IMG/VR virus record: IMGVR_UViG_3300050016_000029
Coordinates: 1-48,088 of that record
DNA from: a virus
DNA length: 48,088 nucleotides
Strand: one strand, 5' to 3'
Under the pieces are notes generated by a model. It searched no databases and had not been told where the DNA came from. It was given only the letters and a program-made list of their open reading frames with translations. How positions within the stretch are numbered: the stretch's first letter is position 1; every line of letters begins with the position of its first letter. The position numbers and the translations under genes were made by a program. This document shows, piece by piece, positions 1,030-37,925 of the stretch.

Positions 1030-1306
1030 CGCTAGAGCCTACGTCTGAGGCGTGGGTCATCCACCGAAGCTCTTCTTCGGTAGTCATCTTGTGGGGCAGG
1101 AACATTTTCATAGAGAGTAGTTCTGCCGCATCGGCGCTATTGGGCCAAATCTGCTTGGCGATCTTCAAGATCACAGCATAAGCGGCTGGATACTTCTCGA
1201 TCAGGTATACCACAAGCTGTGCACCTGTTTCGATACCTGCAATCGCGCTAGCTGAAACCGAGACCCCCATCAACGAGAGTATTTCTGGTAAGAGTAGGGC
1301 GATCAT
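1019..1306 (-). CDS. Hypothetical protein of the lysis cassette
   Basis: A 95-aa protein. The first 35 residues are hydrophobic and small-residue rich (MIALLLPEILSLMGVSVSASAIAGIETGAQ is the general character, shown only in part by its first few residues MIALLLPEIL). A basic amphipathic middle and a Gly-rich end follow. It starts with ATGA overlapping the lipoprotein stop, so it is coupled to the genes above. Phage genes of this size and make-up sit next to holins in several Rhizobiales phages and prophages. I do not recognise a family. A membrane-associated lysis accessory is the most that can be said. Confidence 0.6.
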   Translation of the reverse strand: MIALLLPEILSLMGVSVSASAIAGIETGAQLVVYLIEKYPAAYAVILKIAKQIWPNSADAAELLSMKMFLPHKMTTEEELRWMTHASDVGSSGGG

Positions 1307-1692
1307 GACACTACCCCTACGTTGGAGGGAGCGTTGATGATTTGGCTAGGTGCTACGTTCGGCACAGGACCTACTGAAGTCCTAACTGCTGCGACTAAGG
1401 GACAGAGTTGGTTAGTGATCGACACGTTTAGCGCCAGCACATTCGACACCTTCGCCGCACCAGCGTTATTAGGCGCGACGATGTTGAGAACATTGGTTAG
1501 GACCCCTGAGGCCGGGGTGATAACCGGCGAACATTCTGCAGTCACCAAGATATTCGCTATCATCAAGATGTCCCTACCGATAATAGGGGCATAGGTCCCA
1601 ACCCAAGTGTTGACCTTAGCGAGGTCCGCTGAGAACTTAGCGCAGCCGCTAAGAGTGAAGGCTACGAGAACTATCGTGAGAAGCTTTCTCAT
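1303..1692 (-). CDS. Phage lipoprotein
   Basis: A 129-aa protein with a lipoprotein signal peptide: MRKLL, a hydrophobic core, then the lipobox LSGC with Cys at residue 17. After export and acylation it would be anchored in the periplasmic face of a membrane. The mature part is mostly hydrophobic/small residues with two further Cys. It overlaps the holin stop as ATGA. Its place directly after a holin fits an outer-membrane spanin-like role, but it is longer than typical Rz1 proteins and not proline rich, so the spanin idea is weak. Confidence 0.7.
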   Translation of the reverse strand: MRKLLTIVLVAFTLSGCAKFSADLAKVNTWVGTYAPIIGRDILMIANILVTAECSPVITPASGVLTNVLNIVAPNNAGAAKVSNVLALNVSITNQLCPLVAAVRTSVGPVPNVAPSQIINAPSNVGVVS

Positions 1693-11896: not shown

Positions 11897-14727
11897 TTCG
11901 GCGTATCTCCGACGGTTACCTCAGGGATCACCCCAAGGATAGTAGCTGGCAGCGGGAATGGTTGCTCAATACAATACTGCCCCGGCACTGTCCAGGTAGG
12001 ATCGAGGATAGTCCTAGCATCGGCTGTGACTAAGCCTGTGACTACGGTGTTGGTAGCCGAGCCTACGTTGCCTACAACCAAGTCCTTCATAGGTACTAGG
12101 TTAGTGAAGGTCGAACCCATACTCAAGCCTAGGGTATCTTCGACCCTAACGGTAACAGCGGAGATCTTCTTCCGCTTACCCTGCGCTGTAGGTTCGCCGA
12201 GGTCTATGGCTAAGGTCTGGAGTTGGGGGAGGAACGCGAGGCCTACGGTGACGACGGAGGCCGCAGTGCCTAGGATGAAGGTACCGGTAGTAGGCATTGT
12301 GAAAGGCGGAATCACTACTCCATCTGCTAGACCTGTTACAGTGGCGGCGGCTAGGTGCTGGGCTCCAGTGAAGGTCGTAGCCGGTGCGCCTTGGTATTGA
12401 ATCCCCGCGTCTACACACCAAGCGTAGGTCGGGTCGCCATCGGTTAGAATTCGCTCGGCGAACCTTTCGATGTACTGCACAGTGTTGCCGTTGATAGTCC
12501 TTTGTGTTACATTATAAACCGCATCTACATCGCCGAAGTCGGTGATAGCCTCAGTGCACACCGTAACAGATTGGTATAGCCCTGTAGTATCACTATGCGC
12601 CCAACCTATCAGCTCTTGCTCCTTCATGAAGGTAAGTGTCAACATCGTTCCATCGTCGCGGATAGTCCATACAACCTTGAAAGGTTCTTCAGCCCAAGCC
12701 CATTGTAAGATTTGGAAACCATAGAACAAATGCGAACTTAGCACAGAGATGTCGGTACCGGTGTAGACCTGCGCGTAGTAGTTGAATACTAAGTAGCGAA
12801 CAATCGACCCCTTAGCTTGGACATATAGCAGATCTGAGTTCGCGATAATAGGTGGAACATCTGACGATCCGTTGTAGGCCTGCGCATTAGCCACAATAGA
12901 CTCTGGCGACACCGCCGACCCTGCACTCCCGCCGTTAATCAACCACGCAGCCTTGTCGCTAAGCATAATCATTCCAGCGGGCATGGAAGACATAGACTTG
13001 ATAGTGTTGAGCTGGCCAGAGACTATCGCGGCTGAGATGGCGTCGTCGGGTTCGATTGGATTGGAGATGTTGAAGTTGTAGTAGCTCCCAGGTTGGCTCA
13101 TATAGAACGACTGCGGAGCTTTAGTGAGACCTGCAAGGACCATGCGTTGTTGGAAGAAGCTGGGGACGCCGGGGTTGCCAGCGGAAGCAGTAGCTAAGGT
13201 TGCGGTCGCTGTAGCAGCCCCACTAGAGAACGATATAGCTGGTGCAGCTAGATACCCAGAACCGGGCGAGATCACGCCTACAATCCCTATGCCCCAAGTC
13301 AGATTGATGTTGCAGACTAAGATCCCATTCGTAGTCCGATTGAACCCTACAGGATTCGTCGGCGTCACGCCACTGAGTAGGCCACCGGGTGCGATTAGCG
13401 CGATGCCAGTGACTTGGTTGGAGCCATTGACTGTCGTCACTTGTACTTGTAGGTTGCCTAACCCCGCAGTAGCTGAAGGTACTAACACTTCGCCTACTGA
13501 AGAATTGTTACCCGAGCCGGGTGCGTTCAGGGTAGCTACAGTAACTTGCAACACAGCTTGTAGGGTAGCTGTCTGACCGCCTGTGGGGGCAGCAGCGGCG
13601 GTAGCAACAGGCACTGTGGTGTAGGTTCCGGCGCTAGTAATTGCAACGCTCTGTACCCCTGCGCCTTGGAAGGGATTCTGGGGAACGGGCGGTCCACTTG
13701 AGAAGTCTTGACCGATGTTGGAGTCTGCGAAGGTGACCCCGGTGCAGTTCCCGGCGAACCCATACTGCGCGCCAGCGGCTACAGGGTTGGAGTAGACGGG
13801 TTCGGCTTTGTATACGTTGTAGCTTACTGCCCCCGGCACGGCGGTCCAGGTAACACTATTGGTTCCAGCTACAGTGCGGAGGTCTAGCTTGGAGGCTAGA
13901 ACACCTGGAGCGGAAGGACTAGACTCTTGACCATTGGCGTCTACGGCAGTTACGATATAGGCATAGTTGACGGTACCCGCGCCTAGTGTGGTAGACGCGA
14001 CAACGTTAGCGGGAGTAGTGATGGAAGAGCCGAAGATGATTGGTAACAAAGTCCAACTCGTCGCTGAGTTCAGCGTTAGCACATAGGGTACATAGCTGGG
14101 ATGGGTTAGCACCATCGCATTGACGTTCTGTGCGAATTTCAATAAGGCAACATCAGCCGCAGCGTAGGGGCTGACTATGGTATACACTCGCTGGGTAGTA
14201 CCACCTGAGGTCCAAGTGCCATAACCCGTAGAGTCGATGGCGACGCCATTGAGGTCTGAAAGGGTAATCGTTCCTGCACTACGCGCGGAGATGATGTAGT
14301 AGTTGCCGTTAAGCTGCGTCATACCTACAACACCGGTGATGTAGACCCAATCGCCTACGGCATAGGTGTTGGCTACGCTTACTACTGCTGGGTTCGCCTT
14401 GGTGACAGCGGTTATGTTCAACCCAGTTTCTATAACCGGCGCGCCGTTGTTATAGAAACGGATATACCTATCCCCGACCTCAAGGACATAGCCTACGGTG
14501 AAGCTAGCTTGAAAGGTGATGACGCGAGGTGGATTTCCAGTGTTGGTCTTGTAGGTTTGTAGTATGTAACGCGAGCCTGTTCGAGTACTGGCACCACCGC
14601 GATAGTCTACGAAGAAGTTGCGAAGTAGTGCAGCAGCAGAGTGGTATTTCGCAAGGTCCACGCGAGCGTTCAGCGCGGGAGCCCATTCCCCCGCGTGAAA
14701 CGCATGCTGCATGGTTGGCTGGGCCAT
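11893..14727 (-). CDS. Tail tube/nozzle protein (T7 gp12-like)
   Basis: A 944-aa protein, starting at the ATG at 14727 that shares an A with the adaptor stop (TAATG). The N-terminus is characteristic of podovirus tail nozzle proteins: HAFHAGEWAPALNARVDLAKY, then RNFFVDYRGGASTRTGSRY (partly quoted). Further on there are Ig-like or immunoglobulin-type repeats rich in Thr, Ala, Gly and Val (about residues 220-480). A conserved FFQQRMVLAGL..PQSFYMSQPG region follows, as in gp12-type proteins. It forms the lower end of the short tail. The inserted Thr/Gly-rich section probably adds surface domains. Confidence 0.88.
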   Translation of the reverse strand: MAQPTMQHAFHAGEWAPALNARVDLAKYHSAAALLRNFFVDYRGGASTRTGSRYILQTYKTNTGNPPRVITFQASFTVGYVLEVGDRYIRFYNNGAPVIETGLNITAVTKANPAVVSVANTYAVGDWVYITGVVGMTQLNGNYYIISARSAGTITLSDLNGVAIDSTGYGTWTSGGTTQRVYTIVSPYAAADVALLKFAQNVNAMVLTHPSYVPYVLTLNSATSWTLLPIIFGSSITTPANVVASTTLGAGTVNYAYIVTAVDANGQESSPSAPGVLASKLDLRTVAGTNSVTWTAVPGAVSYNVYKAEPVYSNPVAAGAQYGFAGNCTGVTFADSNIGQDFSSGPPVPQNPFQGAGVQSVAITSAGTYTTVPVATAAAAPTGGQTATLQAVLQVTVATLNAPGSGNNSSVGEVLVPSATAGLGNLQVQVTTVNGSNQVTGIALIAPGGLLSGVTPTNPVGFNRTTNGILVCNINLTWGIGIVGVISPGSGYLAAPAISFSSGAATATATLATASAGNPGVPSFFQQRMVLAGLTKAPQSFYMSQPGSYYNFNISNPIEPDDAISAAIVSGQLNTIKSMSSMPAGMIMLSDKAAWLINGGSAGSAVSPESIVANAQAYNGSSDVPPIIANSDLLYVQAKGSIVRYLVFNYYAQVYTGTDISVLSSHLFYGFQILQWAWAEEPFKVVWTIRDDGTMLTLTFMKEQELIGWAHSDTTGLYQSVTVCTEAITDFGDVDAVYNVTQRTINGNTVQYIERFAERILTDGDPTYAWCVDAGIQYQGAPATTFTGAQHLAAATVTGLADGVVIPPFTMPTTGTFILGTAASVVTVGLAFLPQLQTLAIDLGEPTAQGKRKKISAVTVRVEDTLGLSMGSTFTNLVPMKDLVVGNVGSATNTVVTGLVTADARTILDPTWTVPGQYCIEQPFPLPATILGVIPEVTVGDTPK

Positions 14728-15809
14728 TAGAAGCTCGACATGTATGGGCCCCAATCGAAGCCTTGAGAGTAGGGTCCGGTGTAGTATTCGGAGTAAGCTA
14801 CACCGCGAACGCGGATGAAGTCTGGGGTTATGTCGTTGATGGTCAGGCCTTCGTTACCATCTACCTTCCGCGCTTCACCGATCATAGCATTGGCTTTGCT
14901 CACGCACATGTTGGCTAGAGCCTTATCGCCAGAGAGGGCTATGGCGAGGTAGGCGCCTACCGTCTGAGCCCAAGCGTCGATGAATAACGGATCCATCACG
15001 TTCGGGTCAGTGATCTGCTTGACGTAGGAGAGGGTAGCGAATTCTTGGTTAGTGAGGATCACGCGTTGGGCGGATTGCGCGCCTTGGGTTAGGGTGAACG
15101 TAGCGCCTGTGCCTACACCCGAAGTAGAGGCTTGGGCGATGGTGCCAGCTTGGACGGCGAAGTAGCTGCCGCCGAGGGGAGTAGCTTCGCCAAGAACTTG
15201 GTTCTGCACTGTAACTGTAGCTACTGCGCTAGCGGCTAAGGTGGCTACTACAAGCACCACCGGCGCGCCAATAGGCGTAGACGAGGTAGGGCCTATAGGC
15301 AGGGTGATAGTGTCCCCTACCGCATACCCAGTCCCACCTGCAACTACCGCCGCCGCAGTCACCGGGTAGAACAGATCTATCTGGACCTTATACCTAATAG
15401 GCGGCGTCCATGATGTAGGCGAGCCGCCGGTAACCGCCGTGGTGATTGGAACTCCACCAGCATAGCCAGTCTGGGTAGCTGGGATGATCCAACAGGCTCG
15501 TAGGCAATCTACGGGATATTGGTACTCGTAGGCCCAAGGCGGCGAAGGTTGGCCGGGGGTCCAGAGGTTGGTGGCTGGCGATAGGTTCTCAGGTGTGCCC
15601 GCGACCGAAGTGATGTAGGTTAGGTTGTTAGTGATAAGCCCACAATCCCACGGCGCCATCCGGAGAAGCTGATCTCGGGTACTAGCCAAGATCAAATTCC
15701 CCTGAATGGCTTCGTTGGAACTCAGGGCTACAAGCTCAGCCGCAGTTACAGTTGTGCGTGAGCCGAAAGCTTGCAGCCCGCGATTGAGTACGTCTACGTT
15801 AGCTGTCAA
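14727..15809 (-). CDS. Head-tail adaptor (T7 gp11-like)
   Basis: A 360-aa protein with the N-terminal helical pattern of gp11/P22 gp4-type adaptors: LVALSSNEAIQGNLILASTRDQLLR, followed by a PWDCGLITN strand and PPWAYEYQYPVDCLRACWI. An Ala/Val/Gly-rich insertion (about residues 120-240) interrupts the fold and is absent from T7 gp11. The C-terminal helical region AWAQTVGAYLAIALSGDKALANMC restores the family pattern. The start is TTG, overlapping the preceding TGA. It precedes the nozzle gene, as is usual. Confidence 0.85.
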   Translation of the reverse strand: MTANVDVLNRGLQAFGSRTTVTAAELVALSSNEAIQGNLILASTRDQLLRMAPWDCGLITNNLTYITSVAGTPENLSPATNLWTPGQPSPPWAYEYQYPVDCLRACWIIPATQTGYAGGVPITTAVTGGSPTSWTPPIRYKVQIDLFYPVTAAAVVAGGTGYAVGDTITLPIGPTSSTPIGAPVVLVVATLAASAVATVTVQNQVLGEATPLGGSYFAVQAGTIAQASTSGVGTGATFTLTQGAQSAQRVILTNQEFATLSYVKQITDPNVMDPLFIDAWAQTVGAYLAIALSGDKALANMCVSKANAMIGEARKVDGNEGLTINDITPDFIRVRGVAYSEYYTGPYSQGFDWGPYMSSF

Positions 15810-17782: not shown

Positions 17783-18760
17783 CTATGGGGTATAGGTTAC
17801 AACAATGATACCTTGCGAAGCGTCACCGGTCCCACCAAAGCTACCGCTGCCTCCACCGGAGCCCCCGCCGTAGCCACCTCCGTTACCACCGTTACCTGAG
17901 AAGGTTGATCCACCACCACCTCCAGAACCATGTGATCCGTCCCATTCATTGCCGGTGCCACCGTTGCCTCCGCCGCTAAGGCCTGCACCACCACCTCCAC
18001 CGACTGTCCCAGTAGAGCCTACGCCTGAGTTATTCGCTGCACCAGAGCCGGTACTAGAATGGTTATTACCACCTGCACCGTTGTTGGCCCCTGAACCGGC
18101 CGCGCCAGCAGAACCTCCACCGCCTCCACCACCGCCACCGGACCCATTAGCGGTTGATCCTGCACCACCTACAGCACCTACTCCAAAAGGCCCACCAGCG
18201 CCTCCGCCACCACCACTACCAACGGCACCAGTAGCGCCACCCGCTCCGCCAGAGTTCTTAGTTGTGCCTATGCCAGAAGCAGATGCGCCGCCTAAACCGC
18301 CGGCGGTACTTGCACCAGGATTACCGTTCTTTCCACCTTTAGCCCCAGCCTTTACAGCCGTGCCGGCGATACTAGCGCAGTTGGAAGTAGAATTACAAAG
18401 CCACGTGTCGCCACCAGTGTTTCCGTTTGTTCCACCAACTCCAACGCGGACTGTGACGCCGCCACCTGGAGTAAGGGTTAGACCAGTGATCTTGGAGTAT
18501 GCTCCACCTCCTCCGCCACTGTTCCCCGTTCCAACACCGCCGTTACCTGCTCCCCCTCCGCCAGCAATGACTTCAATAGTGTTGGTAGAGTTATTCCAAT
18601 CTGAAGGAACAGTCCAAGTCGTAGACCCGGTCGTGGTTAGGAAGATTGTTACTGCACTTGTATTAGCCTTCTCTGGGAATAGAATAGGATTAAAGAACTG
18701 CGCATTGAGCGGCAGTGCTAGTCCTATTAGGAGGAGAAGGGAAGCGAAGAACTTCTTCAT
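17783..18760 (-). CDS. Secreted Gly-rich protein with Sec signal peptide
   Basis: A 325-aa protein with a clear signal peptide: MKKFFASLLLLIGLALPLNA, with cleavage expected after the AxA-like LNA (about residue 20). A short adhesin-like domain (WTVPSDW..TIEVIAGGGG) leads into about 200 residues of Gly/Ser/Asn-rich sequence. This resembles Gly-rich domains at the tips of T-even and other tail fibres, which form polyglycine-II type bundles. The signal peptide is odd for a virion protein, since virions assemble in the cytoplasm. It may be an exported surface factor instead. It overlaps the next gene by 4 bp. Confidence 0.75.
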   Translation of the reverse strand: MKKFFASLLLLIGLALPLNAQFFNPILFPEKANTSAVTIFLTTTGSTTWTVPSDWNNSTNTIEVIAGGGGAGNGGVGTGNSGGGGGAYSKITGLTLTPGGGVTVRVGVGGTNGNTGGDTWLCNSTSNCASIAGTAVKAGAKGGKNGNPGASTAGGLGGASASGIGTTKNSGGAGGATGAVGSGGGGGAGGPFGVGAVGGAGSTANGSGGGGGGGGGSAGAAGSGANNGAGGNNHSSTGSGAANNSGVGSTGTVGGGGGAGLSGGGNGGTGNEWDGSHGSGGGGGSTFSGNGGNGGGYGGGSGGGSGSFGGTGDASQGIIVVTYTP

Positions 18761-20379
18761 TGCATAGCCGCTACGCGATAACCGGCGACGGAGTTAATGC
18801 GCCAAACGAAGACGGTGAAGGTGTTAGTGTTGGTTGTGGTTAAGGCGTCGCCAGTGTTGGTGCCTACGGAGAAGCCGGAGAAGGTGATGGTGCCAGCGGA
18901 AGCGTTGTTGGTAACCAAGAGTAAACAGGAGCCATCAGCGGCAGGAGCGGTTAGGGTGAAGTTACCGCCGTTGGTGATGAATTGGTTCGGCCGTGCGCCG
19001 CAGTTGATAGTTAGGTTGCCGGTGGATTGGGTCAGCGAGGTAACGTTCGCGCCGCCAGTAACGGTTTGATTGGCTACGTTCAACGCGGCGATGGTCCCAC
19101 TTGTAGATGGGAAGGTCATCGTTGTAGTGTCAGTGCCAGCTATGGTTATGGAGTTGTTGTAGGTTAGGGTCTTCCCATCAGCGATGGTGATGGTAGAGCC
19201 TGTGGCTGGCGGGGTGAGGGTTAAGGCGTTGATGGAGGTTGCGGTAGCTACGCCAAGGGTCGGTGTGGTTAGGTTTGGCGAGATTGAGAGGACAGCGGCT
19301 GAGCCTGTTCCTACTACGGCAGAGATAGCATTGCCATTGATGGAGAAGGTATTGCCTGCACCAGCAGTGTCGAAGGTTTTGTTGGTTAGGGTGTCGGTGG
19401 TAGCCCTACCAATTAACTGATCCGTCGCTGCTGGTAGCGATAGCGTAGGTGAGCCTAAGGCGCCGGTGACAGGTTGGATCTTCAATGTTCCACTGGTAGC
19501 ATTGCCAAAGGTCAGGGAGCCTAAGGTGCCCGAAGCGCCTAGGGTAGGTGTAGCTGTGAAGGCCGGGGTAGAGCCTGCTAGGACTTGGCCTGCTGCGCCG
19601 GTTATGGTTAGATTGCCGGTGGTGGTGGCTAGTGCTAAAGGAACAGAGACTGTGACCGCCGGGGTGCCTGTACCAGTGCCCCAGGTGATGGTAGGAGTAC
19701 CGGCGGTGCCCTGTACCGTTTGGGTAACAGTTCCGCTAGTGGTGCCCTTGATCGCGAAGGCGCCTGTAGTGCCAGTAGCGCCTAGGGTAAGGGTAGGAGA
19801 TACCCAAGTCATGTTGGCTGAGCCGCCAAAGGCTCCAGCGTTGTTGAACTGAACGTTGGTAGTAGCACCACCGGGCGTAGCACTACCCGCGCAGGCTGCA
19901 CCGGTGTCTACGAAGTTGCCGTTGGCGTCGATCTTAATACAGTTGCCGGTGGAGAGCGAACCTGTAGTGGTGACGAACTTGGTGGTGTTGCCAGAGACTG
20001 TGCCTACTGTCGGGGCTGAGCCTGCGCCTCCACCTATCACTGGTAGGTTCGCGGTGAGCAAGGCTGAGGTAGATAAAGCAGAAGTGCTAGAGAAGTAAGG
20101 AATACCCCCAGAGGTTCCGGTAGTGGTGAAGCCTAGGGTGCCCGTAGTAGTTACCGGCGAACCGGTGACGCCAAAGATAGAAGTCGCAGGAACCCCTAAG
20201 CCTACGCTGGTGACTGTTCCGCTAGAACCTGCTACCGCGTCGTGGACGAATGAGGTAGTCGCGCAAGCGTTAGTGTTGTCGCCACTAGCGCGCTTGGCGC
20301 AGGTTACGTTCTGCGCTACAGCGGGGCCAGTTAGTAGTAGAAGGGCTAAGGCTAAGGCTAAGGCTAACAGCTTTCTCAT
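18757..20379 (-). CDS. Tail-fibre-like repeat protein with Sec signal peptide
   Basis: A 540-aa protein. A strong signal peptide (MRKLLALALALALLLLTG..AVAQ) is followed by a short Cys-containing segment (KRASGDNTNACATTSFVHDA) that resembles the NTxxIATTAFV signature of phage tail-fibre and neck-fibre proteins. The rest is a long Thr/Gly/Ser/Ala beta-repeat region (TGTSGGIPYFSSTSALSTSA and similar), typical of fibres. The C-terminus (FTVFVWRINSVAGYRVAAM) looks like a folded tip. The fibre similarity and the export signal conflict, which is the interesting part. Confidence 0.75.
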   Translation of the reverse strand: MRKLLALALALALLLLTGPAVAQNVTCAKRASGDNTNACATTSFVHDAVAGSSGTVTSVGLGVPATSIFGVTGSPVTTTGTLGFTTTGTSGGIPYFSSTSALSTSALLTANLPVIGGGAGSAPTVGTVSGNTTKFVTTTGSLSTGNCIKIDANGNFVDTGAACAGSATPGGATTNVQFNNAGAFGGSANMTWVSPTLTLGATGTTGAFAIKGTTSGTVTQTVQGTAGTPTITWGTGTGTPAVTVSVPLALATTTGNLTITGAAGQVLAGSTPAFTATPTLGASGTLGSLTFGNATSGTLKIQPVTGALGSPTLSLPAATDQLIGRATTDTLTNKTFDTAGAGNTFSINGNAISAVVGTGSAAVLSISPNLTTPTLGVATATSINALTLTPPATGSTITIADGKTLTYNNSITIAGTDTTTMTFPSTSGTIAALNVANQTVTGGANVTSLTQSTGNLTINCGARPNQFITNGGNFTLTAPAADGSCLLLVTNNASAGTITFSGFSVGTNTGDALTTTNTNTFTVFVWRINSVAGYRVAAMQ

Positions 20380-20735
20380 AGGTTAGTATCCATCACAGTA
20401 AGGGCGTTGTTACTGGCACTGGCTGAAAACGCCTGCCATGCACCTTGGCATTCGCCGGAGATCTCTAGGGTACCTCCGTTGGCGTAAACGCGAAAGCAGC
20501 CGCCAAGGGCACCGGTTGTAGGGGCCAGCGCGACCTGAGAGCCGTTAACGATCACATTCGCCGGGGCGATGAAGATGTCGATGGTGCCGGGGTTGTGGAA
20601 GATAAGCTTCCTTCGCGCGGGGTTGGCTATTGCGACTGATTCTGGCGTGGTGCCTAGATCGTTAAACGCATACACCTTACCGCCGCTGGCGGAGGAGAAG
20701 GTTTGTGATCCGCCTACAATGCCCTCGATGCCCAT
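20376..20735 (-). CDS. Putative minor virion protein
   Basis: A 119-aa protein without signal or TM. It is beta-rich with Gly/Ala/Val (TTPESVAIANPARRKLIFHN, PGTIDIFIAP). The pattern of a strand with NPxRRxLIFxNPG..xIxI is frequently seen in small phage head/fibre accessory proteins. Its position between fibre-like proteins supports a structural role. It overlaps the next gene as ATGA. Confidence 0.65.
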   Translation of the reverse strand: MGIEGIVGGSQTFSSASGGKVYAFNDLGTTPESVAIANPARRKLIFHNPGTIDIFIAPANVIVNGSQVALAPTTGALGGCFRVYANGGTLEISGECQGAWQAFSASASNNALTVMDTNL

Positions 20736-20738
20736 GGC

Positions 20739-21155
20739 CTAGACTCTACGGGCTAGGGGCTTGGGTTGGGGCTTGGGTGCTACCACTACGTCAGGGATTT
20801 GCGAAGCGGTGGCGTGGGTTGGGAGCGATTCGATCGGGTGAACCCATTTGTGTTCTAGGGCACGGCTAATCTGCACCGCCTCGTCGTCAAGCGGCTCCAT
20901 CTCCGGCGTAGGTTCACCACGTAGACCTCGCGCAGATTGGAACAAGATGTCTTTGGGATACACCGGCGACTCTTTGTCACAGACGATGATTTCGCCGGGG
21001 TAGTTGTGATCGGCGTTGTCCCTAGGGTCTAGGTAGAGGGGAACAGCGAATATCTTCCGCCCTTGCTTGCCACTAGAGCGATCGGTTTCCTTGTATTCCC
21101 ATTCGGTGCCCGGGACATGTAGGTAGTGAGGATTGATAAGTCTCCAACGTGCCAT
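20739..21155 (-). CDS. Conserved head-region protein; ends in the L-x-R-R-V signature
   Basis: A 138-aa protein: MARWRLINPHYLHVPGTEWEY (partly quoted), then KIFAVPLYLDPRD and an acidic middle. It ends PKPQPKPLARRV, one of seven copies of the shared C-terminal motif (see findings). Proteins starting MARWRL..HYL.VPGTEWE occur in the structural operons of several podoviruses; the function is unknown. A ribosome site AGGAGAACACA precedes the ATG. Confidence 0.75.
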   Translation of the reverse strand: MARWRLINPHYLHVPGTEWEYKETDRSSGKQGRKIFAVPLYLDPRDNADHNYPGEIIVCDKESPVYPKDILFQSARGLRGEPTPEMEPLDDEAVQISRALEHKWVHPIESLPTHATASQIPDVVVAPKPQPKPLARRV

Positions 21156-21164
21156 TGTGTTCTC

Positions 21165-21278
21165 CTAGTGAAAGTATAACCACGCACACAGGATCATACC
21201 CCATAGCGCGAAGTTGATCCCAAGTGCTGCAAGCATGGTTAGTGGCTTGTGCCTTTGTGTAGACACAAGCCACTCCAT
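21165..21278 (-). CDS. 37-aa single-TM protein
   Basis: It begins MEWLVSTQRHKPLTMLAAL and continues with one hydrophobic helix to the C-terminus (ALGINFALWGMILCAWLYFH). The ATG at 21278 lies two bases beyond the preceding stop. The basic N-terminus suggests N-in topology. It is small but sits in a coupled operon with little spare space. Role unknown. Confidence 0.6.
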   Translation of the reverse strand: MEWLVSTQRHKPLTMLAALGINFALWGMILCAWLYFH

Positions 21279-21279
21279 G

Positions 21280-22377
21280 TTAGCGAGCCCTACGGCAAGA
21301 TAGTTGGCCGTAGCCGTTATCGGTCGATACCGAGAAGGTGTCATTAGCGACAAGGTACTCATTGGTTGTGGCAGATACTGAGATACGGGTAGGACCAATG
21401 AGGTGATCGCGGCCTAGGACACCAGTTACGTTCGCGGCAGTCTGCTCAACGTGAACGGCGGTGGTGCCTTGTGTACCGATAGTCGTAGCCGCTGGGTTGA
21501 TGGCAGACGAGAACACCGTGAAGGAGGTGGACGAAGCCGGAACACGAGAGACTACACCACGACAATCCCAATCACCAGCGGTAAGGGCGATGCCGGTGAC
21601 GGTAGCCGCAGTGGTAGAGGAGAGTGCTACGCCAGAAGTGCGGGTTTGGGTGCCAGTGCTAGAGCCAGTAGTGGTGACGGCAGTACCGGCTAAAGCGTTG
21701 GCGACAGTCGTAGCAACGGTGTAGGTATTGGCGGTAACACTACCCGGTACGACGTAGTAGGTGGTACCAGAGGTGATGCCGGTAGGCAAGCCACCACCGC
21801 TGTTGGTAAAGACTACCGGGCAAGCACCGACGATAGCGTGTGCAGTGTCGGTGAAGACGCCGGGGGCCGCGATGGTGATAGTGACGGTAGCAGTATTGGC
21901 GTTGCTCAAACAGGAGGTAGTGATGACTTCGCCGACGTAGCCAGCTTGAGCATTGTCGTTGGTAGCTGTACCAGCGGCAGCGCCTGGGCCTATGATTTGC
22001 CCGAACCATGCGCTACCAGAGAGTGGGAACAACACTACCCGACCGTAGGTAGAGCAGAAGGTCAAGGTACCTGAAGAGCCGTTGATCGTTTCGCTAGAGG
22101 CGGGGGTTAGTACTAAGCAAGAGTTAGCCCCACCTACGTTACCGAAGGTATCTACAACCTCTAACGAGTTGGTATTACAAGTTTGACCTACGCAGGTTGC
22201 GCTTGCGGAGGGTAAGGAGATTACACGATTGGCGGAGATAGCTACCGTAGGCACCAGCCGAACGTCGGTAGTGAGGACCGTGTAGGCTGCGTTGGGCAGA
22301 GCCGTGTAGGCATCAACAGCTAACGCTGGGGCGACGAAGCCCCAGGTTAGTGCTAGAGCGAGTAGGAGCTTTCTCAT
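21280..22377 (-). CDS. Secreted hypothetical protein with Sec signal peptide
   Basis: A 365-aa protein starting at the ATG at 22377 (ATGA with the gene before), giving MRKLLLALALTWGFVAPALA and a canonical ALA cleavage site. The mature part is Thr/Ala/Gly/Val-rich, predicted beta, with several Cys pairs (ATCVGQTCNTNS), which would form disulfides only if exported. This makes real secretion likely. Family not recognised. It lies in a run of similar signal-peptide genes. Confidence 0.75.
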   Translation of the reverse strand: MRKLLLALALTWGFVAPALAVDAYTALPNAAYTVLTTDVRLVPTVAISANRVISLPSASATCVGQTCNTNSLEVVDTFGNVGGANSCLVLTPASSETINGSSGTLTFCSTYGRVVLFPLSGSAWFGQIIGPGAAAGTATNDNAQAGYVGEVITTSCLSNANTATVTITIAAPGVFTDTAHAIVGACPVVFTNSGGGLPTGITSGTTYYVVPGSVTANTYTVATTVANALAGTAVTTTGSSTGTQTRTSGVALSSTTAATVTGIALTAGDWDCRGVVSRVPASSTSFTVFSSAINPAATTIGTQGTTAVHVEQTAANVTGVLGRDHLIGPTRISVSATTNEYLVANDTFSVSTDNGYGQLSCRRAR

Positions 22378-23012
22378 TGTGCCTGCTCCGTCCACGCGAA
22401 GCTAACTGCGAGGAGGCCTGAGGAGACTGAGATGCCTCCTAGGTTCACGCAGAGTTGCTGAGCGATCCCTCGTAAGACTGGCGCTTGCATGAAGTTGCGC
22501 TCGCGATAGTCGAAGAACGCGAAGGAAGGGTTGACTAGCGCCGAGGTGACGTTGAAAGACACCGTCTGGGCGTCGATCTGCACGGCCGAACCGTCTACGG
22601 TGGGGTTGGCCGTGTAGGCTGTGGTCGTAGCTGACACCGCAGCGTTCTTGGTATCTAGCGGAACAGGTGCGGGGAGGGCGGTGGTAGCCGCAGCGGTTCC
22701 GCCAGTGTTAGCGATAGTGTGGAAGTTGAGCAAGACTGGGAGGGTTATCAACGTTCCTGCGGTGCCCGATACGCGCACAGACTGGACACGGATTGTCTTC
22801 GTAGCCGAGCCAGTGATACACGCGATGTCGGTGGCGCTAGAGGCCGGAGCGATTCCATAACCCATCGCCGCGTAGGAGGTGACGACAGGTTCAGAAGCGC
22901 AAGTGATACCCGGTAGGTTGTTGATGCTGATAGAGCCCGCGCCCACACATTGGGCTTGGGCTGCACCAACGAAGCCTAGGAGGAAGGCTACGCCTAAGAG
23001 AATGCGTTTCAT
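22374..23012 (-). CDS. Secreted hypothetical protein with Sec signal peptide
   Basis: A 212-aa protein starting at the ATG at 23012 with an excellent ribosome site (AGGAGGGAAC). Its signal peptide is MKRILLGVAFLLGFVGAAQA with an AQA cleavage site. The mature part has four Cys, beta-type composition and an FFDYRERNFMQAP segment. A longer open frame upstream uses earlier starts, but the ribosome site and signal peptide decide for 23012. Family not recognised. Confidence 0.78.
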   Translation of the reverse strand: MKRILLGVAFLLGFVGAAQAQCVGAGSISINNLPGITCASEPVVTSYAAMGYGIAPASSATDIACITGSATKTIRVQSVRVSGTAGTLITLPVLLNFHTIANTGGTAAATTALPAPVPLDTKNAAVSATTTAYTANPTVDGSAVQIDAQTVSFNVTSALVNPSFAFFDYRERNFMQAPVLRGIAQQLCVNLGGISVSSGLLAVSFAWTEQAQ

Positions 23013-23020
23013 GTTCCCTC

Positions 23021-23554
23021 CTAGTTCGCTACGTTGATGCCAGCGGGGTATCCGCCAGCAACAGAGTTGTCGGTTGACGAGTAGGGCTGGTCCCAACGGT
23101 CGAGGACGATGTAGGCTGAGACGTTGCCCGCAGTCATCGTCGCGGTTCCAACAGTGTAGAGTAGACGGACGAAGCGCGGGATTGCGATTCCATCCGGCGG
23201 ACGCGGGAAGTCCATGTCCATTAGACGGCTGCCTGCGTTTAGGGTAGCCAAGGCGAACGTCGGACCAGACCACCAAGTGTTGAAGGTACCAGCGGCTCCC
23301 GAGCCGTTGTCGGTTGCGCCTTGAAGGGCGACGGAGAGAGTACCAGCACCGCCAGAGGTGAAGGTCGTGGTGACTTCCACCAAGAGCTTGAGTGCAGGAT
23401 CGTCGCCGATACCCATATCGCGAGCGCCTTGGAGATTGGCGAGTTTGGGAATCGCCGGGCCTCCGAAGTCGATCACGTTGGTAGAGTTCTGTGTACCCGC
23501 AGCGATCGCAAGGGACACAGCGTTGTCGAATTGAAGTAGGGAATCTAGAATCAT
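23021..23554 (-). CDS. Capsid cement/decoration protein, Bbp16-like
   Basis: A 177-aa protein beginning MILDSLLQFDNAVSLAI and continuing NSTNVIDFGG..RDMGIGDDPALKLLVEVTTTFTS. It then has VALQGATDNGSGAAG and VRLLYTVGTATMTAGNVSAYIVLD. This is the pattern of the Bbp16 family, which decorates the capsid of Bordetella phage BPP-1-type viruses. It is immediately downstream of the capsid gene with start and stop touching, exactly as in that group. Confidence 0.85.
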   Translation of the reverse strand: MILDSLLQFDNAVSLAIAAGTQNSTNVIDFGGPAIPKLANLQGARDMGIGDDPALKLLVEVTTTFTSGGAGTLSVALQGATDNGSGAAGTFNTWWSGPTFALATLNAGSRLMDMDFPRPPDGIAIPRFVRLLYTVGTATMTAGNVSAYIVLDRWDQPYSSTDNSVAGGYPAGINVAN

Positions 23555-37150: not shown

Positions 37151-37204
37151 GCTGGGCGTCCAACCCAGCCTTCCGCGAGTGTACCTGCGCGGGGACAGAC
37201 AGGT
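37151..37204 (+). promoter_or_regulatory. Leader hairpins before the outer-membrane protein gene
   Basis: GCTGGG/CCCAGC (37151-37169) is a 6-bp hairpin. ACCTG (37183-37187) can pair with CAGGT (37200-37204) just before the ribosome site AAAGGAG (37208-37214), and CCGCG/CGCGG can compete with it. This may tune translation. Confidence 0.4.
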
Positions 37205-37220
37205 GCAAAAGGAGACTACA

Positions 37221-37925
37221 ATGCGTTATCGTGCATTACTACTCGGGGGCGCATGTGCACTACTCGCGTTCCCGTCATTCGCAGCCGACCTGCCGGTGAA
37301 GAACCCGCCACAGCCTGTTCCTAACCCTATGGCGGATGTCTTCACTGGATGGTTCCTAGGTGCCGAGGTAGGCGCCGACTGGGGCCATGCGAAACCGTCC
37401 ATCTCAGGAGCGACTAGCATAGACCCGACTGGCTTTGCCGGCGGCGGTTCCCTAGGCTACCGCTCTCAGGTCGCTAACGGATGGTACCTTGGCCTATCCA
37501 CCAGTCTAGACTTAGCTGGCGGCTCTCAGGTCAAAGCTATCAATAACTACACCTCCCTAACCGCCAAGAACGATTGGTTTGGAGCCACGATGGTCCAAGT
37601 CGGCTATCGCGTACTTCCTGACCTTCTCGTCTACGGTGAAGGTGGCGTAGGCTACGGAGCGAAGAAGGCTAAGCTGTTAATCTGCAACACTACCCTAAAC
37701 GACACCGAAGACGGCGTAGGTTGGGCAGTTGGTGCAGGAGCCGACTACAATCTTCGCCATATCACCGGCTATCCTATCTTGGCTACGGTGGAATACCGCC
37801 ATATCGACCTGGGCCAGACTTCCTTTGCCTTCCCGGCTGGTAGCAGCGGCTTCACTGCTGGCGCCAAGGCGAAGATCACCGATGATGCTATCCTTGTAGG
37901 AGCGAAATACAAATTCGGTAGGTAA
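37221..37925 (+). CDS. Outer-membrane beta-barrel protein, Omp25/RopB-like
   Basis: A 234-aa protein starting at ATG 37221 with AAAAGGAG upstream. It has a signal peptide (MRYRALLLGGACALLAFPSF, cleavage after SFA), and the mature start AADLPVK is characteristic of Rhizobiales outer-membrane proteins. The rest is a typical 8-stranded barrel with alternating aromatic residues (FLGAEVGADWGHAKPS, VGYRVLPDLLVYGEGGVGYG, LATVEYRHIDLG) and a C-terminal strand ending YKFGR. It was probably acquired from a host. Possible roles: superinfection exclusion (as lambda Lom-like barrels), envelope remodelling, or receptor masking. It has its own leader and end hairpins. Confidence 0.85.
   Translation: MRYRALLLGGACALLAFPSFAADLPVKNPPQPVPNPMADVFTGWFLGAEVGADWGHAKPSISGATSIDPTGFAGGGSLGYRSQVANGWYLGLSTSLDLAGGSQVKAINNYTSLTAKNDWFGATMVQVGYRVLPDLLVYGEGGVGYGAKKAKLLICNTTLNDTEDGVGWAVGAGADYNLRHITGYPILATVEYRHIDLGQTSFAFPAGSSGFTAGAKAKITDDAILVGAKYKFGR

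Follow-up and report, generated by a model that had tools for sequence, protein, structure and literature searches.

The 48,088-nucleotide stretch of viral DNA analysed here (the window; IMG/VR record IMGVR_UViG_3300050016_000029) carries in its late operon a cassette of genes of which four encode products beginning with a predicted Sec signal peptide. By gene content (Pfam and PHROG matches, gene order) the window phage is a podovirus of the BPP-1/epsilon15 type. Its major capsid protein (MCP) is of the GP7 type (PF20911, E 9.4e-135) and is 48–56% identical to those of BPP-1, phiV10 and their relatives; collinearity with this type extends to the portal, Bbp16, tail adaptor and tail hub. The gene order of the window is terminase, portal, GP7 capsid protein, Bbp16, cassette, tail adaptor, hub and internal virion proteins. 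The segment between Bbp16 and the tail adaptor is 7.2 kb long versus less than 1 kb in the annotated relatives BPP-1, phiV10 and vir555, from which the cassette is absent. The longer cassette is a difference in gene content and not a defining trait of the BPP-1/epsilon15 group. Its overlapping genes inside the late operon speak against a lysogenic-conversion (moron) gene. No integrase was found among the window proteins searched, which covered only part of the window open reading frames (ORFs), and no other tail-fibre gene was recognised among them.

The four signal-bearing ORFs (P1, P2, P5 and P6) and two genes for non-exported proteins (P3 and P4) are listed in Table 1. Sec signal peptides were predicted with a rule set of our own, consisting of a charged n-region, a hydrophobic core and an AxA cleavage site, which all four ORFs pass, as do just a handful of others in the window. 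Good support for the signal-bearing starts comes from four-base overlaps of start and stop codon (P5 with P6, P2 with P3 and P1 with P2) and from a GGAGG upstream of the P6 start. A preliminary description of this DNA had reported these four ORFs with their signal peptides, several cysteines in at least two of the products and a Gly-rich protein among them. All of this is borne out, the Gly-rich protein being P1. The same description read an ATTSFV segment as tail-fibre-like. The segment is present at residues 40–45 of P2 and suggests the phage tail fibre repeat PF03406, but neither P2 nor four relatives matched PF03406 at E 10.

Table 1. Genes and predicted features of the cassette and its borders in the window (export as predicted by the rule-based Sec test).
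Feature	Position	Strand	Remarks
Tail adaptor, right cassette border	14727..15809	-	phrog_394
P1, predicted exported Gly-rich protein, possible tip adhesin	17783..18760	-	2 Cys; start MKKFFASLLLLIGLALPLNA, predicted cleavage before Q
P1 signal peptide	18701-18760	-	rule-based Sec test
P2, predicted exported spike/fibre, receptor-binding candidate	18757..20379	-	6 Cys; start MRKLLALALALALLLLTGPAVA, predicted cleavage before Q
P2 docking peptide A (putative), QNVTCAKRASGDNTNACATTSFV	20245..20313	-	directly after predicted cleavage site
P2 signal peptide, 22 residues	20314..20379	-	rule-based Sec test
P3, non-exported putative adaptor	20376..20735	-	upstream of P2
P4, conserved non-exported cassette protein	20739..21155	-	present in 50 loci
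P5, predicted exported fibre-like protein	21280..22377	-	8 Cys; start MRKLLLALALTWGFVAPALA, predicted cleavage before V
P5 signal peptide	22318-22377	-	rule-based Sec test
P6, predicted exported product of the first gene past Bbp16, modelled as a single jelly-roll	22374..23012	-	4 Cys; start MKRILLGVAFLLGFVGAAQA, predicted cleavage before Q
P6 signal peptide	22953-23012	-	rule-based Sec test
Bbp16 homologue (head decoration), left cassette border	23021..23554	-	PF21190, E 1.1e-13

A capsid-protein scan provided 80 viral contigs with 87–91% MCP identity; loci are numbered here with the prefix L. The first gene after Bbp16 is signal-bearing in 70 of the 72 loci of these relatives, and the signal peptides are conserved. 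None of 329 genes coding for MCP, Bbp16, portal, P4, P3, tail adaptor or hub carries a signal peptide in the relatives, and 18 of 674 genes upstream of the MCP gene do. Signal peptide placement after Bbp16 is far beyond chance. The plan of the cassette is kept while its content varies, with mostly one to eight secreted genes accompanied by the non-secreted P4 (49 homologues, all without a signal peptide) and an adaptor-type gene. The residue at position +1 of the mature protein is Q in 189 of 257 cases and is invariantly so in the P6 family (alignment A1, n=28). The suggestion that the similar signal peptides arose by duplication or exchange of an N-terminal module is not supported, the similarity of signal-peptide DNA being 0.38 within a phage and 0.38 between phages.

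Some loci deviate from this plan. An 816-amino-acid ORF of L074 is a gene-caller artefact, its likely start being a downstream one with a signal peptide. Tat-type signals (PTRRKFLTG, TRRSVSLGLLG) were seen at L069:9879-10730 and in an 886-amino-acid ORF located before the spike gene in L283/L284, so that export may use Tat besides Sec. HNH-endonuclease-like ORFs, judged by eye, are inserted in the cassette at L022:9058-9495 and L071:9372-9833. Cassette-bearing or closely related phages are also present in two metagenome-assembled genomes, of Terriglobia (L084) and of Telmatospirillum (L086), as either a hint to the host or a binning error.

Proteins folded in the periplasm tend toward paired cysteines. 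When mature proteins holding any cysteine are counted, the ratio of even to odd cysteine numbers is 172:8 in secreted proteins, 56:88 in non-secreted cassette proteins and 174:233 in other phage proteins (230:321 for the latter two together). Taking one member per family, 47 of 52 secreted families are even (p 6e-10), and held-out loci fetched later gave 198:17 for secreted proteins versus 212:280 for the others. In the P6 family cysteine pairs are gained or lost together, the second partner lying on another strand in three members. The motifs that follow the cleavage site of spike proteins (docks A and B, see below) have two cysteines or none: two in 60, none in 3 and one in 0 cases of dock A; two in 42, none in 4 and one in 0 cases of dock B. 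Sec export of the cassette spikes is very probable because of the cysteine parity, the all-or-none cysteine pairs of the docks and the Q at +1. Signal peptides, export and paired cysteines are all strongly supported by these sequence statistics.

Two types of small non-secreted proteins, P3 (alignment A4) and F7 (A5), are encoded directly upstream of a secreted spike gene, usually with a gene overlap of 4 or 8 bases. The spikes behind P3 display after their cleavage site a motif of the form Q-N-x-x-C-x-x-R-P-x-G-D-x-S-N-A-C-A-S-T-A-F-V (dock A), while those behind F7 start with Q-C-N-G-V-F-P-x-N-T-x-C-G-N (dock B). Docking profiles trained on the first loci were tested on 84 new adaptor-spike pairs, yielding 46 P3-A and 33 F7-B combinations, no crossed combination and 5 unassigned pairs (Fisher p 5e-23, a value that ignores relatedness). 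In a search starting from dock A, P3 was directly upstream in 51 of 57 spikes and at the same locus in most others. The MCP tree implies at least 8 switches of adaptor type, with the dock matching every time. Spike bodies are mostly unrelated within one adaptor type and, conversely, 18 cross-type pairs have a common body behind different docks; in the seven inspected, the bodies align with 27–40% identity beginning behind the dock. Linked inheritance alone is therefore insufficient to explain the adaptor-dock match, as related bodies sit behind either dock. Exchange concerns the spike body that follows the docking peptide. A specific pairing of the adaptor with the docking peptide is strongly, if indirectly, supported, and an N-terminal module coupled to an adaptor and continued by a variable body is the organization expected of a receptor-binding spike.

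The bodies themselves point in the same direction. Pfam and PHROG matches within 80 secreted proteins scanned were mostly to tail-spike or tail-fibre domains or to carbohydrate-active and lectin-like ones, including pectate-lyase spike, tail collar, Gly_rich_2, GDSL, LamG and BNR domains. Spike and fibre domains were thus found in relatives at the same position and not in P2 itself. Library scans (Pfam, PHROG) gave no match for P1 or P2; Gly_rich_2 domains occur in other secreted members and were not detected in P1. Residues 25–120 of P5, which has relatives at L048, L078, L008 and L009, resemble the F7 adaptor domain (F7 profile, 26.6 bits). The P6 model (predicted local distance difference test score, pLDDT, 82) has jelly-roll-like matches with a best Z of 8.5, structural matches too general for naming a function of P6 from its fold. 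Among 22 non-secreted proteins scanned from the secreted cassettes, seven are O-antigen-ligase/polymerase-like membrane proteins with a Wzy_C domain (L001:6077-7030, L018:12563-13651, L023:2989-4095, L074:12559-13647, L076:9524-10615 and others). They possibly serve surface conversion, and part of the cassette may have a surface-modification role.

Several observations bear on whether the adaptors are virion parts. In L045 a fibre-like protein of 524 residues, lacking a signal peptide, has the F7 domain as its N-terminal portion, and in L071 F7 is kept ahead of an unsecreted fibre-like protein. F7 also matches a baseplate PHROG weakly. P3 is modelled as a beta sandwich (pLDDT 89) whose best VIA-align match is the spike protein P1 of PM2 (Z 10.3, root-mean-square deviation 3.1, 91 residues aligned), the other matches being to beta sandwiches in general. 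The likeness of the modelled P3 to PM2 P1 is one of common fold, which alone shows no function. Cys96 of P3 is nearly invariant (GECQ) though the protein is non-exported.

Prophages of cultured Acetobacteraceae with the same type of capsid offer a natural comparison of fibre N-termini. Their fibres have a motif resembling W-x-Q-N-Y-x-P-T-x-x-E-W. It lies near the very N-terminus, with no signal peptide, in Komagataeibacter intermedius, Acetobacter musti and several Bombella/Saccharibacter genomes, and a few residues past the cleavage site in Gluconacetobacter entanii (two fibres), Saccharibacter floricola and Bombella pluederhausensis. As one motif occurs with and without it, the signal peptide looks like an addition ahead of the docking end of the fibre. 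The Acetobacteraceae fibre gene is found between tail adaptor and hub, while the window cassette lies between Bbp16 and tail adaptor. Relatives starting downstream of the signal, which the preliminary description had considered to speak against its interpretation, do exist among these prophages, but the signal there precedes a shared fibre docking motif.

We consider it fairly probable that the cassette supplies receptor-binding spikes which are exported, acquire disulfide bonds and attach to adaptors of the virion when the cell lyses or afterwards. According to this model Sec would export the products of the late-operon cassette, signal peptidase would trim them, and their disulfide bonds would form in the periplasm. 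The receptor-binding spike or fibre of the phage would be P2, together with P1, and P3, made without a signal peptide, would be an adaptor located on the virion; the N-terminus left after signal cleavage would act as a docking peptide fitting P3. The virion with its adaptor would be built in the cytoplasm while mature spikes stay in the periplasm, and at lysis the spike would meet the particle and dock on it, leading to completion outside the cytoplasm. We infer both the docking on the virion and its timing. There is in our estimate an even chance that this tailed-phage lineage completes its virions outside the cytoplasm, with signal peptide cleavage as a step of virion maturation. A number of points weigh against such a route. 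Tailed phages are normally thought to build their tails and fibres in the cytoplasm, and docking would need enough spikes to reach the virions after lysis. P3 and F7 are probably on the virion, a location to which the evidence is indirect. Only 4 of the adaptor switches fall on supported branches, giving an underpowered sign test (p 0.125). No adaptor was identified for P6, P5 and other secreted families, and in L022 the P3 adaptor is present in a cassette without a secreted gene.

The preliminary description had left undecided whether the signals mean export for modifying the host surface or have another use, such as tail attachment or membrane-anchored assembly. Export is very probable, as seen above, and since the mature N-terminus of each spike matches a non-exported adaptor, we prefer tail attachment to modification of the host surface; the latter may still play a part in view of the O-antigen-ligase-like genes. 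The main competing explanation, which we regard as unlikely, is that the exported proteins are secreted depolymerases or adhesins acting on the host envelope or extracellular polysaccharide and not virion parts. They could, for example, clear or block receptors so that progeny avoid debris or superinfecting phages stay out. This would agree with the pectate-lyase-like, GDSL, LamG and BNR domains of secreted members, with the O-antigen-ligase-like genes in 7 relatives, with the Tat-exported tailspike-fold enzyme WceF of Pantoea (PMC7949094) and with the existence of phage envelope proteins such as Lom (PMC12309495). However, it leaves unexplained the match between mature N-terminus and non-exported adaptor, as well as the presence of the same docking motif at the beginning of unsecreted fibres, and the window would be left with no recognised receptor-binding protein.

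Rather improbable in our judgement is a role of P3 and F7 as cytoplasmic export chaperones that keep the region behind the signal unfolded until it reaches Sec and then stay behind. Both are indeed non-secreted, translationally coupled to the spike and specific for the region adjoining the signal peptide, but F7 is fused to one unsecreted fibre and precedes another unsecreted fibre-like protein (L045 and L071), an F7-like domain is itself exported within P5, and the weak baseplate match of F7 and the beta sandwich of P3, like those of viral spike and cement proteins, fit a chaperone poorly. The N-termini of the exported proteins, hydrophobic over 17–22 residues, could also be uncleaved anchors tethering assembly to the inner membrane, which we take to be very improbable because the AxA sites, the frequent Q at +1 and the paired cysteines fit cleaved and released proteins. 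That the hydrophobic starts are an accident of a GC-rich genome or of wrong start codons deserves hardly any credence: some spurious signal-like ORFs do arise in GC-rich DNA, but position-specific conservation, stop/start overlaps and cysteine parity contradict such an origin here.

Two further window genes outside the cassette have signals. The ORF at 37197-37925 (+), in the replication arm, carries a signal peptide and codes for an outer-membrane beta-barrel protein (PF13505, E 2.9e-13), possibly one that the phage places on the host surface. The ORF at 1303-1692 (-), beside the lysis genes, has a lipoprotein-type signal (LSGC) and is possibly a spanin; it matches the Cor PHROG by its start only.

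If the favoured model of exported spikes is true, such disulfide-bonded spikes represent an assembly route unlike the cytoplasmic assembly of tails and fibres. It would explain how soil phages get stable spikes, whose supply would depend on the Sec and Dsb systems of the host, and free spikes could be shared among the phages of one burst. Gene-finding that reads signal peptides as non-structural would miss them. Soil metagenomes seem to contain this group of phages commonly, whereas it appears to be missing among cultured phages; the related prophages of cultured Acetobacteraceae make the hypothesis testable.

Searches of 50,697 phage records gave no significant match to P6, P3, F7 or the docking peptides, dock A was absent from 72,556 plasmids, and one weak match (E 0.4) was obtained across the phage and plasmid searches. 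The literature covered, which did not include subscription journals and preprints, yielded no account of tailed phages with secreted spikes. The fibre systems of BPP-1 (NC_005357) and phiV10 (NC_007804) share with the window the GP7-family capsid and the order Bbp16, tail adaptor, hub, and pectate-lyase, Gly-rich and collar domains are likewise found in the spike bodies of receptor-binding proteins of the BPP-1/epsilon15 type. In BPP-1 and phiV10, however, one or two small genes join Bbp16 to the tail adaptor and the fibres are encoded downstream; no signal peptide was found downstream of the capsid gene in BPP-1, nor by the strict rule in phiV10. The gp38 protein of the T4-like phage S16 is a Gly-rich tip adhesin that is encoded after its fibre and is not exported. 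P1 follows P2 in the same manner, and a Pfam search of P1 gave no match. The nearest precedents are exported endolysins, Lom and WceF. Endolysins with a Sec signal or a signal-arrest-release (SAR) sequence, such as the exported Lys44 of phage fOg44 (PMC6116005), are late phage proteins with a genuine Sec signal that wait outside the membrane until lysis, but they are lysis enzymes and neither receptor-binding nor virion proteins. Lom of lambda, a phage envelope protein (PMC12309495), is similarly the product of an exported-protein gene adjoining phage tail genes, yet it is a host outer-membrane barrel, not fibre-like and without an adaptor. WceF of Pantoea stewartii, a tailspike-fold glycan hydrolase exported by Tat (PMC7949094), resembles the cassette spikes in being both tailspike-like and exported; it differs in being a bacterial biofilm enzyme, encoded outside a phage structural operon and without a docking partner.

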